Shown one piece after another: positions 604 through 30,869 of a stretch of DNA of 64,000 bases. The notes under the pieces are model-generated. The model saw only the letters and a list, made by a program, of their open reading frames with translations, searched no databases and was not told the origin of the DNA. Source of the DNA: Paracoccaceae bacterium (GTDB taxonomy: Bacteria; Pseudomonadota; Alphaproteobacteria; Rhodobacterales; Rhodobacteraceae); contig JAFIEO010000024.1 of the NCBI GenBank assembly GCA_020832445.1, forward strand, positions 62,001-126,000, in the 5' to 3' direction. How positions within the stretch are numbered: position 1 is the first letter of the stretch; every line of letters starts with the position of its first letter. A program made the translations under genes and the position numbers.

Positions 604-1998
604 TCAGTCCTTGGGGCCGATCATATCCTCTGGCCGCACCACGCGGTCGAAGGTTTCGGCGTCCACAAATCCCAATGCGATGGCTTCTTCTTTCAATGTG
701 GTGCCGTTCTTATGCGCGGTCTTGGCCACTTTGGTGGCGTTGTCATAGCCGATGGTGGGGGCAAGTGCTGTGACCAGCATCAGCGATTCCTTCATCAGGC
801 GGTCGATGCGTTCCACATTCGCGCGGGTGCCCACGACCATATTGTCGGTGAAGCTGGAGGCCGCGTCGCCCAGAAGCTGCATGGATTGCAGCACATTATA
901 GCTCATCATCGGGTTATAGACGTTCAGCTCAAAGTGTCCCTGCGACCCTGCAAAGCCCACTGCTGCGTCATTGCCCATGACATGCGCGCACACCATTGTC
1001 AGTGCCTCGGCCTGTGTGGGGTTGACCTTGCCGGGCATGATGGAACTGCCCGGTTCATTTTCAGGCAGGATCAACTCCCCCAGTCCCGAACGCGGGCCAG
1101 ACCCCAGAAGCCGCATGTCATTGGCGATCTTGAACAGTGACCCCGCCACGGTTCTCAGCGCGCCTGAAAACATGACCATCGCATCATGCGCGGCCAGTGC
1201 CTCGAATTTATTGGGGGCGGTCACAAAAGGCAGGCCGGTGATTTTTGCGATATGGGTTGCGACATTCACATCCCAGCCCTTGCGGGTGTTCAACCCCGTG
1301 CCCACAGCCGTACCGCCCTGCGCCAGTTCATAGATATGGGGCAGGCACATTTCCACGCGCGCAATGCCCATTTTTACCTGATGGGCATAGCCGCCGAATT
1401 CCTGCCCCAGCGTCAGGGGCGTGGCGTCCTGGGTATGGGTGCGACCGATCTTGATGATATCCTTGAACTCGTCGGATTTCGCGGCGAGTGCTGCATGCAG
1501 CTTGTGCAGCCCCGGCAACAGCACATCGCGCGCCAGCATGCCGATGGCCACATGCATGGCGGTGGGAAAGGTGTCATTGCTGGACTGGCCCATATTGCAA
1601 TGATCATTGGGGTGAACAGGTTTTTTGGACCCCATTTCACCGCCCAGAATTTCAATCGCGCGGTTCGAGATCACCTCGTTTGCGTTCATGTTGGATTGGG
1701 TGCCTGACCCTGTTTGCCACACCACCAGCGGGAAATTGTCGTCAAACTTGCCTTCAAACACTTCCTGTGCGGCTGTCGTGATGGCGTCTGCCAGTTCCGC
1801 ATCCAGCGTGCCTTGTTCGCGGTTGACCAATGCGCAGGCCCATTTGACAGCGCCAAGCGCGCGGATGATGGGCACGGGCTGGCGTTCCCAACCTATGGGA
1901 AAGTTGATGATAGAACGCTGCGTCTGCGCGCCCCAATACTTGTCTGCGGGAACGTCAAGCGGGCCGAAACTGTCGGTTTCAGTGCGGGTGGTGGTCAT
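604..1998 (-). CDS. fumC: Class II fumarate hydratase
   Basis: 464 aa; [24 protein letters not shown] and [13 protein letters not shown] signature. Confidence 0.97.
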
Positions 1999-2135: not shown

Positions 2136-2355
2136 TGGCCCTTTGCGGTCAGTGGGAAAGCCCCAAGGCGCGGAGCAAAGGGCGAAGCCCGCCGCGCCAT
2201 CGGCGGGCCGTCCCGCGGCCTGCCGATAACCTGATGGCAGGCCAAGCCTTTGAAGTCAGGATTGTGCAGCTTGCATAAACTGCATCCCGATAACGCCGGA
2301 TCGGCAGACCCCGGCCCACCGATAGCGCGGGCTTGGTTCCAATGCGAAGGGCAGC
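2136..2355. repeat. 220-bp dispersed intergenic element, copy A
   Basis: Aligns without gaps to 29611..29830; long identical blocks, e.g. CCGCGCCATCGGCGGGCCGTCCCGCGGCCTGCCGATAACCTGATGGCAGGCCAA. Confidence 0.9.
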
Positions 2356-2476
2356 TTCAGGCCATTCCTGCCGGGCTTTCGGGGTTCAGCTGCGATGATC
2401 TTGCCCGCGAATTTGTGCTGCGCGGACCTGTTTCCTGCTTTCCCGCGAAAATGCGCGCGCAGGGGCAGTCACCTGA

Positions 2477-2944
2477 TCACTTGCGAAACTTGTCTAGACT
2501 GACGACTTCGCCGCTTTTCTCCTCTGACGGGGCGTCTTCCATCATCGGGGCCTCGTCAAAGCTGTCGTCTTCGTCCTCGTCGTCTTCATCGCCCTGCAAT
2601 TCGAACCGCAGGCCGAATTCTACCGACGGGTCAACAAATGTCGAAATCGCATCGAAGGGAATATACAGCGGTTCGGGCGAATTGCCGAAATTCAGCGTGA
2701 TCGCAAACCCGTCAGGATCGACCACCAGATTGTCGAACCAGTTTTGCACCACAAGCGTGATTTCTTCGGGATAGCGGTCGCGCAGCCAGTCGGCCATCTG
2801 CATGTCAGGGTGGCCGGTATCAACGGTGATGAAGAAATGATGCGCGCCGGGCAGGCCGTTTTGCGCCACACCTTCCATCACGCTGCGGATCAGGCCGCGC
2901 ATGGCTTCGTGCATCAAATTGCCGTAATCTATGCCGCGTGTCAT
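2477..2944 (-). CDS. sspB: SspB family ClpXP adaptor-like protein
   Basis: MTRGIDYGNLMHEAMRGLIRSVMEGV...HHFFITVDTGHPDMQM, acidic tail ending SGEVVSLDKFRK. Confidence 0.88.
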   Translation of the reverse strand: MTRGIDYGNLMHEAMRGLIRSVMEGVAQNGLPGAHHFFITVDTGHPDMQMADWLRDRYPEEITLVVQNWFDNLVVDPDGFAITLNFGNSPEPLYIPFDAISTFVDPSVEFGLRFELQGDEDDEDEDDSFDEAPMMEDAPSEEKSGEVVSLDKFRK

Positions 2945-3129
2945 GTCTGGTTCAACCTTCGCATTTTGCCGTGCCCCATGTGACGTATTCCATGTGACAT
3001 GTCCCTTGCTTTTGCAGCATAAGCAAATCATCCCCGAATGAAAGAGGGGGGACGCGCTTTTTGCCACTTTTTGCCAGCCGCCTGCCAGTTGTGCAAACAA
3101 GCTGTCAAAGCTGGCTATATGTATGAAAA

Positions 3130-3440
3130 TGCAGGCTTCTGTTGCCAGGTGCCTGCGAACCCCGCCTTACGCGGCTAAGCGCAAGGGCTTAAGTTTCGGT
3201 TTGGTTACTGCTTACGCAGCAACTGCTACCGGAGCACGGTTGTCATTTGCAACTGTACGATTTGCACCGATAACGGTGGTGGCTCACCGAGACAAAGCTA
3301 ACCCCTTTAGACGTTCGTCGATCCTGTTTCGGCCCCATTGTCCCCAAATGAAGGATGAATGGTGGAGCCGCCGGGTACCGCCCCCGGGTCCGATCCGCTT
3401 ATTACGAGCGCGTTTATGTCCATAGTCCCTTGCGGAACAT
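3130..3440 (-). ncRNA. ssrA: Circularly permuted two-piece tmRNA (alphaproteobacterial type)
   Basis: Minus strand: T-arm/acceptor ...GGCGGTACCCGGCGGCTCCACCA (CCA at 3362-3360), then a 23-nt intervening segment, then coding-piece 5' end GGGGCCGAAACAGGATCGACGAACG (from 3336). GGGGCCG pairs with CGGCTCC. Tag frame 3250..3212 encodes ANDNRAPVAVAA*. Outer ends approximate. Confidence 0.95.
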
Positions 3441-3574
3441 CCCTAATGTAGGGGGCGACGGGGGCGGATGCAAGGGGCGTGACGCGATGCGTCGTGCGAT
3501 CATCGGTTCTGGATTGGCGCGCATGACGGGCGATTGCAACATTTCCTCAAGCAGTTCCCCGACTGCTGCATGGG

Positions 3575-27079: not shown

Positions 27080-27449
27080 GGACAACATCGCCATAGCGCT
27101 GGACTATCTGCTGACCCGTGAAGGGTATGCCCAGACCCGCCTTGCGACAGGGGCGGGCGCTGTGGACATGATCCGCGAGACCAAACCTGATCTGGTGTTG
27201 CTTGATGTCATGCTGCCCGAAGTGTCGGGCTATGATATTTGCCAGACAGTGCGCGCAGACCCTGATTGCGCCGATGTGCGCATTCTGATGATGACCGCAC
27301 GCGGGTCGGCCATGGAACGGCGCAAGGGCTTGGCCATGGGGGCGGATGGGTTCATCTCAAAACCGTTTGAACTGAAAGAGTTGCGCGAAGAAGTTCGCAA
27401 GATACTTGCGGGTGATTCCGCACATCCGCCGGATCGTACCGATGCTTGA
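27033..27449 (+). CDS. CheY-like response regulator
   Basis: ILVVEDEDNIAIALDYLL...PDLVLLDVMLPE...KPFELKEL; single receiver domain. Confidence 0.92.
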   Translation: MEDRAKKVQILVVEDEDNIAIALDYLLTREGYAQTRLATGAGAVDMIRETKPDLVLLDVMLPEVSGYDICQTVRADPDCADVRILMMTARGSAMERRKGLAMGADGFISKPFELKELREEVRKILAGDSAHPPDRTDA

Positions 27450-29532
27450 ACGCCTTGGTCTGCGTATCCGTGTTCTGCTGTTTTTCGCCCTGCTTGCGGT
27501 GGGGGCAGTCGTGGCGGTGGGTGTCGCCGGCTGGCTGGTTCTGTCGCGCAGCGACATCGCGTCTGATCTGCTGGCGCCTATGGCGCAGGCGGGTATTCTG
27601 GCGGGCTTCCTGATCCTGTTTCTGGTGACGGGTATCTGGTATCTGTTTGATATGAATGTCGCGCGTGCCATTGACGGGCTGGCCAATGCCATTCGCACCC
27701 GTGCACATGCGGATATTCATGACGATCTGGGGCATGACAAGGAACGCGCGCGCTATCTTGGTGATCTTGCGCCTGCGGCGGCGGAAATTTCACGTTCGCT
27801 TGCACAAACCCGTTCGGCGCTGGCGGAATCGGTGGCGCGCGAAACATCGCGGCTGTCGGGCGAAAAGGCGCGGCTGGAAAAACTGCTGGCGGATGTGCCG
27901 GTTGCAGTTCTGCTATGCACCGCCGACTATCAACTGGCATTCTATAACGGGCAGGCTGTCACCATTCTGGAAGCCGGGGGCGCGCCCGGACTGGACCGCA
28001 ATTTGCTGGATTACCTGCGCGAAGGGCCGGTGCGCCATGCCTATGAACGTCTGGCCAAGCTGAACGATCCCGAAGCGGCATCTGACCTGATTTGTGCAAC
28101 CACCAGCAGCGGGCGGCTGTTGTCGGGGCGGATGCGGGTGCTGCGACGGACCGAGCATACACAACGCCCCGGTTTCGTGCTGACCTTGCGCGATGTCACC
28201 GCCGATCTGGCCGCCCATGCCGCGCGCGAGGCGTTGTTGGCGGAAGTGTTTGACCGCGTGCGCAGGCCAGCGGCGAATTTGCAAACCGTCATTGGTGTTA
28301 TTTCCGAAGACAGTGAAATGGCGCAGGCGGCGGATCTGACTGCCGCCATGCTGTCCGAAGTGCAGGGGCTGACCACTGCCATCACTGAATTGGGCCAACG
28401 CTATGATGCGGGGCGCAATGACTGGCGCCCGCTTACGCAAATACGCTCCCCCGACCTGATGGACGGGGTGCGCGCGCAGTTTGAAACCCTGGGTCTGGAA
28501 TTGCACACAGACGGGCCGGAACTGATGCTGACCTGTGACGGGTTTGAACTGGCGCTGTTGCTGCGCTGGCTGGGGCACAGACTGGCGCAGGCAGGCCATG
28601 CCCGCAGCTTCCGGCTGGTTCTGAGCGAGGAGGACGGGCCGGGTGCCGTGCTGGATCTTGTCTGGCAAGGCCCGTCATTGCCAGTGGGCGTGTTCGATTC
28701 GTGGCTTGCAGAACGGCTGGACCCCGACACGCCCGACCTGACGGCGCGCGCTGTGCTGAATGCTCATGCGACAGAAGCCTGGACTGAAGCGCGCGGCGAT
28801 AGCGGGGGCGCTGTGCGCCTGCCCATTCCCAATGCGCGCCGCGCAACGACGCGGCCTGCACCGATCCAGCGCGAGGTTGTCTATGATTTCGAATTGCTGT
28901 CCAAGGCGCGCAATGCGGGCGTTCTGGAAAGCAAGCTGGAAGATCTGACCTATGTTGTGTTCGATACCGAAACCACCGGCCTGACACCGTCCAGCGACGA
29001 AATCGTGCAGATTGCGGCTGTGCGCGTGGTCAATGGCCGCCGCGTGAAGCGAGAGGTGTTTGACACATTGGTGGACCCCGCCCGCGCCATTCCGCCATCG
29101 TCGACCGAGGTGCATGGCATTACCGATGATATGGTCAAGGGTGCCCCCAGCATGACCGAGGCGGGCAAGCGCTTTCACGACTTCGCGCGCGGTGCGGTGC
29201 TGGTGGCCCACAATGCGCCGTTCGACATGGAATTTCTGCGCAGGCACGAAAAATCCATGGGTGTGCGGTTTGATCATCCGGTGCTGGACACGGTGCTGTT
29301 GTCGGCGGTGGTCTATGGCCAGCTGGAACAGCATTCGCTGGATGCGCTGACTGCGCGGCTGGGCATTACCATCCCGGAAGAAGCCCGCCACACCGCCATA
29401 GGCGACACTGTGGCCACGGCGGACGCTTTCCTGAAGCTTATGCCGATGCTGAAATCGCGCGGGCTGCTGACATTCGGGGATGTGCTGGGCGAAGTGCGCC
29501 GCCACGGGCGGTTGTTGAAAGACCTGAACTGA
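27442..29532 (+). CDS. Membrane sensor-like (TM-PAS-degenerate kinase) protein fused to DnaQ-type 3'-5' exonuclease
   Basis: Two N-terminal TMs, PAS-like VPVAVLLCTADYQLAFYNGQAV, H-box-like FDRVRRPAANLQ without His, C-terminal VVFDTETTGLTPSSDEIVQIAAVRV and HNAPFDMEFL. Confidence 0.88.
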   Translation: MLERLGLRIRVLLFFALLAVGAVVAVGVAGWLVLSRSDIASDLLAPMAQAGILAGFLILFLVTGIWYLFDMNVARAIDGLANAIRTRAHADIHDDLGHDKERARYLGDLAPAAAEISRSLAQTRSALAESVARETSRLSGEKARLEKLLADVPVAVLLCTADYQLAFYNGQAVTILEAGGAPGLDRNLLDYLREGPVRHAYERLAKLNDPEAASDLICATTSSGRLLSGRMRVLRRTEHTQRPGFVLTLRDVTADLAAHAAREALLAEVFDRVRRPAANLQTVIGVISEDSEMAQAADLTAAMLSEVQGLTTAITELGQRYDAGRNDWRPLTQIRSPDLMDGVRAQFETLGLELHTDGPELMLTCDGFELALLLRWLGHRLAQAGHARSFRLVLSEEDGPGAVLDLVWQGPSLPVGVFDSWLAERLDPDTPDLTARAVLNAHATEAWTEARGDSGGAVRLPIPNARRATTRPAPIQREVVYDFELLSKARNAGVLESKLEDLTYVVFDTETTGLTPSSDEIVQIAAVRVVNGRRVKREVFDTLVDPARAIPPSSTEVHGITDDMVKGAPSMTEAGKRFHDFARGAVLVAHNAPFDMEFLRRHEKSMGVRFDHPVLDTVLLSAVVYGQLEQHSLDALTARLGITIPEEARHTAIGDTVATADAFLKLMPMLKSRGLLTFGDVLGEVRRHGRLLKDLN

Positions 29533-29610: not shown

Positions 29611-29830
29611 TGGCCTTTTGCAGACATCGGGAAAGCCCCAAGGCGCGGAGCCAAGGCCGAAGGCCGCCGCGCCATCGGCGGGCCGTCCCGCGGCCTGCCG
29701 ATAACCTGATGGCAGGCCAAGGCAATGATCTTGGGAGTATGCAGCTTGCATAAAGTGCATTCCTTGAATGTCGGATCGGCAGACCCCGGCCCACCGATAG
29801 CGCGGGCTTGGTCCCCGCGCGAAGGGCAGC
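29611..29830. repeat. 220-bp dispersed intergenic element, copy B
   Basis: Gap-free alignment to 2136..2355, same orientation; includes GGCCTGCC-gataacctgat-GGCAGGCC. Confidence 0.9.
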
Positions 29831-29888
29831 AAAAGGCCAGCATCACCCGCACACCGGATGCTTCAACCTGATGAGACCCCGCGCCAAC

Positions 29889-29922
29889 AAAAAAGGCAGC
29901 CCTTGTGATAGGGCTGCCTTTT
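29889..29922. terminator. Bidirectional intrinsic terminator downstream of etfA
   Basis: AAAAGGCAGCCC-TTGTGATA-GGGCTGCCTTTT, perfect 12-bp arms with A/T runs on both sides. Confidence 0.92.
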
Positions 29923-29942: not shown

Positions 29943-30869
29943 TTACAGCTTTTCGGTCAGTTCCGGCACCATGGTGAACAGATCGCCCACAAGCCCGTAA
30001 TCGGCCACCTGAAAAATCGGGGCTTCTTCGTCCTTGTTGATGGCGACGATCACCTTGCTGTCTTTCATACCCGCCAGGTGCTGGATCGCGCCGGAAATGC
30101 CCACTGCGATATACAGATCGGGGGCGACCACCTTGCCGGTCTGGCCCACTTGCCAGTCATTGGGCGCATAGCCGGAATCGACGGCCGCGCGCGATGCACC
30201 GACCGCTGCGCCCAGTTTGTCGGCCAGCCCTTCGATCAGCTTGAAATCGTCTTCGGACCCCACACCGCGCCCGCCGGATACAACCACCTTGGCCGATGTC
30301 AATTCGGGCCGGTCGCTGGCAGCAACCTTGTCTTCGACCCATTCCGACAGGGCAGGGTTGTCTGCGGCTGAAATGTTGTCAACACTTGCAGACCCGCCTT
30401 GAGCAGCCGCGTCAAAAGTGGATGTGCGGATTGTCAGAACCTTGGTCGCATCACCGGATTTGACGGTCTGGATCGCATTGCCTGCGTAAACCGGACGCTC
30501 GAATGTGTCTGCATCGACAATGCCCGACACATCAGACAGCACCATCACATCCAGCAACGCCGCAACGCGGGGCAGAATGTTTTTTGCATCGGTCGTCGCA
30601 GGGGCCACGATATGGCTGTAATCGCCCGCAAGGCTGACAATCAGCGCGGCGGTGGGTTCGGCCAGACGGTGGCCCAGACTTGCATCCTCGGCGCACAGAA
30701 CCTTGGCCACCCCGTCGATCTTCGCGGCACTTGCAGCGGCATCTGCCGCACTGGCGCCCGCACACAGGACCGTCACATCGCCCAGTTGCGCCGCAGCCGT
30801 CACCGCCTTGGAGGTTGCGTCCATGTTCAGCACACCATCGGTGACTTCGGCCAGAAGAAGAACTGCCAT
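29943..30869 (-). CDS. etfA: Electron transfer flavoprotein alpha subunit
   Basis: [68 protein letters not shown]. Confidence 0.97.

Follow-up and report, generated by a model that had tools for sequence, protein, structure and literature searches.

The repeat found at two places in the window (the whole stretch of 64,000 nucleotides that was analysed, from a Roseinatronobacter genome) is, on balance, considered to be an old, family-wide, non-coding, MITE-like element of the Rhodobacteraceae, the spread of which would have needed one strand in folded form and which would now be decaying in tolerated sites at gene ends. Using a covariance model (R1) built on the conserved core, the repeat was matched in at least 172 genomes out of a set of 397 Rhodobacteraceae, in which almost every genome represents a different genus; this count is a lower bound, the best six candidates having been scored. 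The same approach gave no match in any of approximately 380 alphaproteobacteria outside the Rhodobacteraceae in a class-wide sample. Carriers identified by pattern scan include Roseovarius, Sulfitobacter, Salipiger, Leisingera, Loktanella, Shimia, Natronohydrobacter and others. The genome holding the window contains approximately 112 copies by the covariance model (E ≤ 1e-12) and at least 40 by BLASTN, and the chromosome of a sister species (G020) approximately 104 intact core copies. The family is thus not limited to the pair from which it was described in the initial annotation, and relatives carry it widely.

The family is apparently undescribed within the sources searched. For the window and eight relatives, neither gathering nor relaxed thresholds gave a credible match in Rfam 15, and no description of this repeat was found in the open-licence literature. 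No phage record matched the repeat, and a phage origin was rejected on that ground. Plasmid records contain it without annotation, and coordinates on plasmid NZ_CP121115.1 of Roseinatronobacter sp. S2 match those on the plasmid of the sister species. The repeat disrupts genome assembly: in the assembly holding the window, contigs C4, C15, C25, C67, C68, C74, C91 and C95 start, and C50 ends, at or inside a copy.

The two window copies are 229 bp each and 87% identical (Table 1). Over the 220 bp originally delimited they align in the same orientation without gaps, as had been reported by eye, at 87.3% identity (E = 5e-75). The right-hand edge had been drawn too early. In a flanked alignment, similarity among copies of the own genome stops approximately 28 bases outside the core on each side, at TGGCC and GGCCA, and the real unit is some nine bases longer, ending at 2364 and 29839. 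The earlier statement that terminal repeats were lacking does not hold for the extended unit, and arose because the boundary had been placed inside a terminal repeat. Copy 2 carries an 11 bp inverted repeat, TGGCCTTTTGC...GCAAAAGGCCA, at its outer ends and copy 1 a mismatched version; variant ends, TGGCCTGAAGC/GCTTCAGGCCA, occur in other copies, as do mixed pairs, of which copy 1 is an example. Similar ends are found in other genera, e.g. at locus L138. Terminal inverted repeats (TIRs) at the edge of conservation, as in a MITE, are therefore present, albeit degenerate and often mismatched within one copy; the two TIRs of one copy match each other slightly better than shuffled ends (29/1000).

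Table 1. Positions of the repeat copies, their structural parts and neighbouring genes in the window, and of short forms in the sister species
Feature	Position	Strand	Remarks
Copy 1, full unit	2136..2364	structured strand (-)	TIRs TGGCC (2136-2140) and GGCCA (2360-2364)
Copy 1, conserved core	2164..2336	(-)	covariance model R1, 157.1 bits, E 1.1e-29
P1 5' arm	2312..2329	(-)	18 nt, partner 2193-2210
P1 3' arm	2193..2210	(-)	18 nt
P1b 5' arm	2300..2310	(-)	11 nt, partner 2217-2227
P1b 3' arm	2217..2227	(-)	11 nt
Hairpin P3	2180..2190	(-)	GGGC-GAA-GCCC on + strand
Apical domain between P1b arms	2228..2299	(-)	conserved GCA.TTTATG motif (CATAAA on + strand)
Copy 2, full unit	29611..29839	(-)	ends TGGCCTTTTGC (29611-29621) and GCAAAAGGCCA (29829-29839)
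Copy 2, conserved core	29639..29811	(-)	covariance model R1, 166.4 bits, E 1.6e-31
sspB, neighbour of copy 1 on stop codon side	2477..3100	(-)	PF04386
fumC, neighbour of copy 1 on start codon side	604..1998	(-)	PF00206 and PF10415
Gene left of copy 2, convergent	27406..29532	(+)	exonuclease per initial annotation; stop at 29532
etfA-like gene right of copy 2, convergent	29943..30869	(-)	name from initial annotation; stop at 29943
Short forms, sister species	G020:C1:979845-979921, 1394189-1394265, 2257632-2257707, 2745625-2745702, 2981938-2982014		
Short form, sister species	G020:C3:156128-156204		between convergent genes

Target-site duplications showed no excess over shuffles in 35 copies (k = 3-9); old copies could have lost them. 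An autonomous partner sharing these ends was not detected, all 33 matches to an IUPAC pattern of the TIRs in the own genome being located at copies of the element. Core lengths are spread evenly over the remainders modulo 3 and no reading frame is open in all sequences, from which it follows that the element is not coding.

The core of approximately 174 nt is near-constant in length, ranging from 167 to 178 nt across 26 diverse sequences and from 171 to 176 nt across a second set of 29. On the minus strand it folds into a long-range helix of 18 bp (P1) with an 11 bp helix (P1b) stacked on top, plus a small hairpin (P3), the stem of which alternates between GGGC/GCCC and GGCC/GGCC among copies. 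In the 26-sequence alignment 95.0% of cells were paired and 13 of the 33 pairs had changed on both sides, values that none of 500 shuffles reached by any measure, and a shift of one to three columns in the partner destroyed the pairing. The covariation across genomes that the initial annotation had proposed looking for was found again in the second set, in which each sequence derives from another genome: 96.3% of cells were paired and 18 of 33 pairs covaried (0 of 500 shuffles). Although 28 of these 29 sequences were not used in model building they were found with the model, so that a certain bias in favour of its structure may be present, and the cells of such counts are not independent of one another. 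Two alternative local hairpins, H1 and H2, which the mutual resemblance of the four arms permits, also covary, with 90-91% of cells paired versus 95-96%. They were rejected as the main structure, having fewer paired cells and competing at columns where the long-range partner (P1b) fits better. The perfect 8 bp hairpin GGCCTGCC/GGCAGGCC highlighted in the initial annotation is present in both window copies, but is specific to the lineage and not kept between genera, and was discarded as the conserved structure.

Substitution patterns indicate which strand is folded. When P1 and P1b are read on the minus strand, G-U cells outnumber A-C cells by 49:3 in the first set and 48:3 in the second (binomial p = 2e-11, with relatedness ignored). 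For all pairs of the structure in 104 own copies the ratio is 229:20, or approximately 56:16 after subtraction of three columns in which G-U is common. G-U so far above A-C identifies a single, folded strand, the minus, as the selected form, be it RNA or ssDNA. It is in this sense only that the 'structured RNA' of the initial annotation stands, since covarying pairs on one strand are expected of a structured RNA and of a folded ssDNA alike. By folding energy the minus strand has no advantage, being the more stable in only 13 of 29 sequences; as minimum free energies do not discriminate, the strand assignment rests on the substitutions.

Comparison with the sister species indicates that resident copies are long established. 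For 39 own copies both flanks lie on the examined parts of the sister chromosome; 33 of the orthologous sites hold an element of the same size and the other six a shortened or rearranged one, with no clean empty site among the 39. In four other species of the genus the sspB-fumC gap is short and without the element. The 33 shared sites fall into two identity groups, one of 18 sites (0.90-0.99) and one of 15, including window copy 1 (0.78-0.86), whereas flanks are 0.92-0.95 identical. Elements of the latter group are about as different as unrelated copies despite their closer flanks, suggesting that the resident was replaced by another copy, for which ectopic gene conversion is the simplest route. 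Where orthologous pairs are conserved, the elements were no more conserved than their flanks. Substitutions in the stems of the high-identity group comprised 13 between WC and GU, 6 between WC and AC and 22 between WC and mismatch, which is close to the expectation under drift and suggests weak constraint on resident copies.

Copy 1 occupies the sspB-fumC gap, the genes on either side of which are both encoded on the minus strand, and copy 2 lies between a convergent pair, the exonuclease gene (+) and the etfA-like gene (-). The position beside the 3' ends of coding sequences claimed for both copies is correct for the sspB side and for copy 2, but the other flank of copy 1 is the start side of fumC. 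A permuted alphaproteobacterial tmRNA gene adjoins sspB (window 3128-3477, minus strand; Rfam RF01849, 305 bits). An inverted repeat at window 29885-29922 (AAAAAAGGCAGCCCTTGTGATAGGGCTGCCTTTT), which bears A and T tracts and separates copy 2 from the etfA-like gene, is probably the terminator of that gene, in which case copy 2 lies downstream of the terminator.

All own copies lie outside the called genes, which were predicted by a codon-usage script trained on the window rather than by a published gene finder. Own copies flanked by called genes on either side number 98. Of these, 78 have convergent neighbours, 18 co-directional ones (11 sense, 7 antisense) and two divergent ones; convergent pairs thus receive approximately 80% of copies while representing approximately 15% of adjacent gene pairs. 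Within 1.2 Mb of the sister species 39 of 51 copies were convergent, and the element occupied 39 of 160 convergent gaps, approximately one quarter, compared with 12 occupied among the 918 remaining gene pairs (Fisher p = 2e-24). The bias is weaker yet clear in other genera (31/48 and 37/68), and four of five annotated plasmid contexts, one short form counted, are convergent, with one counter-example. At co-directional sites of all sets 36 copies were sense and 34 antisense (p = 0.9). No replication-strand bias was observed (51:40, p = 0.29), which lends no support to lagging-strand ssDNA transposition. Intrinsic terminators flanking or inside the element are rare, a hairpin with a T-tract being present in 7-9 of 98 copies.

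Such placement might reflect a role for the host, in which transcription of the upstream gene would extend through the element, and the element, folded at the 3' end of the mRNA, would act as a terminator, insulator or stabiliser, either halting read-through into the converging neighbour or shielding the transcript from it. The convergent bias in both Roseinatronobacter genomes, the occupancy of convergent gaps, the persistence of the bias in other genera, the scarcity of intrinsic terminators at these sites and the conserved pairing of one strand are all in keeping with a gene-end RNA. This role predicts a sense bias at co-directional sites, where the two orientations were near equal, and is at odds with the weak constraint on resident copies and with elements of conserved orthologous pairs being conserved no better than their flanks. 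The small number of copies with a T-tract hairpin argues that the element is not an intrinsic terminator, and the convergent bias is also expected of an inserted element that must avoid promoters. A gene-end RNA is regarded as rather unlikely.

A smaller chance is given to a multi-copy gene for an autonomous non-coding RNA, driven by a promoter of its own, for which dispersal would be secondary. The conserved single-strand structure, the near-constant core of the 29 sequences, the conserved unpaired TTTAT and GCCAAATCCG-like motifs and an orientation independent of neighbouring genes would suit such a gene. More than 100 copies at differing sites would not, nor would the failure to match over half of the sampled family genomes, even with the matched number a lower bound; and no promoter-like site was found near either window copy by a scan that covers alphaproteobacterial promoters poorly. 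Function as a DNA-level site, e.g. a gyrase-binding or supercoil-buffering repeat, would explain the preference for convergent gaps, where positive supercoils build up, as has been argued for REPs (PMC1525189), but a double-stranded function predicts equal G-U and A-C, contrary to the 48:3 of the second set, and is very improbable.

Known mobilisers were sought in carrier genomes. The RAYT/Y1 transposase (PF01797) was absent from the own genome (99.99% complete) and from three copy-rich relatives (G017, G018 and G028), with positive controls, and the sister species gave one sub-threshold match; reverse transcriptase (PF00078) was absent from the own genome and eight other carriers and present in 4 of 13. 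As the own genome has neither gene, both were rejected as mobilisers. A REP/BIME-type element moved by a RAYT (TnpA_REP, Y1 transposase) is scarcely credible, for although the repeat is palindromic, intergenic, abundant and biased to convergent gaps as REPs are (PMC1525189, PMC3733652), its unit of approximately 230 bp compares with 20-40 bp, no GTAG/CGTC tag was noticed by eye and the RAYT gene is missing. The initial annotation had suggested a REP/MITE-like repeat or a structured RNA; a dispersed, intergenic, structured family was indeed found, here and in many other genera, and of the first pair MITE-like is the better half, given the TIRs, the many copies and the lack of a conserved frame, while a strict REP fails on size, tag and transposase.

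The MITE-like reading would account for most of these observations as follows. Past spread may have proceeded via a trans-acting recombinase or transposase requiring the folded single strand, and spread that depended on a folded strand would keep the pairing of one strand across genera while leaving orientation to transcription random. Copies landing where promoters would be hit would have been lost, with those at gene ends left. In Roseinatronobacter the copies would by now be largely immobile and subject to near-neutral drift, internal deletion and mutual overwriting by ectopic gene conversion. The MITE-like reading is supported by the TIRs, copy number, covariation, the G-U excess on the minus strand, lack of sense bias, old shared sites, weak resident constraint, the empty sspB-fumC gaps and the lack of coding capacity. 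Against it stand the absence of a target-site duplication, of an autonomous partner and of a mobiliser from the searches above, a TIR self-match barely above shuffles, folding energies that give the minus strand no advantage, and the fact that no insertion was caught in the act. The more exacting proposal of a selfish element distributed across one bacterial family and filtered into convergent gaps, the spread of which depended on machinery other than a RAYT/Y1 transposase or reverse transcriptase recognising its folded single strand, is advanced tentatively and thought doubtful as a whole. The element offers a clean test of whether the conserved folding of bacterial repeats serves the host or their own spread, and allows one to ask if occupancy of convergent gaps alters transcription.

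Several known families share features with the repeat. NEMIS/Correia, ERIC and RUP elements (PMC2229807) are likewise small, non-coding and intergenic, with TIRs and transcripts that would fold into long paired structures. The Rhodobacteraceae repeat is larger, G+C-rich and ends in TGGCC rather than TA; it further differs in that no target duplication or cognate IS was found, in covariation over many genera and in its strong convergent bias. REPs favour gaps between convergent genes or gene ends, a preference for which tolerance and function have each been put forward as the explanation (PMC1525189, PMC3733652). REP, BIME and REPIN elements resemble the repeat in high copy number, palindromes, preference for convergent and tandem gaps and G-T pairs in stems (PMC3733652), but are tagged 20-40 bp units moved by RAYT, as opposed to approximately 230 bp in a genome without RAYT. 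The bcr1-bcr18 repeats of the Bacillus cereus group are also dispersed and MITE-like; some of them have a conserved RNA structure and UTRs are a frequent location (PMC3446304), bcr1 measuring 147-167 bp (PMC2267715). They are confined to that group, whereas the present repeat spans an alphaproteobacterial family, and a relation in sequence would not be expected. RIME and related repeats of Sinorhizobium and Brucella are alphaproteobacterial intergenic mosaic repeats with palindromes. Their hosts are Rhizobiales rather than Rhodobacteraceae, and the likeness, in being intergenic and palindromic, is by description only.

Variant forms of the element were also encountered. Short forms of approximately 77 bp in the sister species (Table 1) and at locus L060 fit both ends of the core model without the middle; that at L060 retains P1 and P3 and has lost P1b and the apical domain. 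Elements with an extra hairpin (GTCATGCCGAAGGCATGCGTCCCGCATGAC) inside the core occur at L053:1349-1546 and L057:1501-1599. A second, unrelated dispersed palindrome (GCGAAATCAATAAGTTAGAGCAT and partners) is located at element ends at own loci L180 and L021, and also at L018 and L023. At two orthologous sites the own genome differs from the sister species in this palindrome, which thus looks separately mobile.
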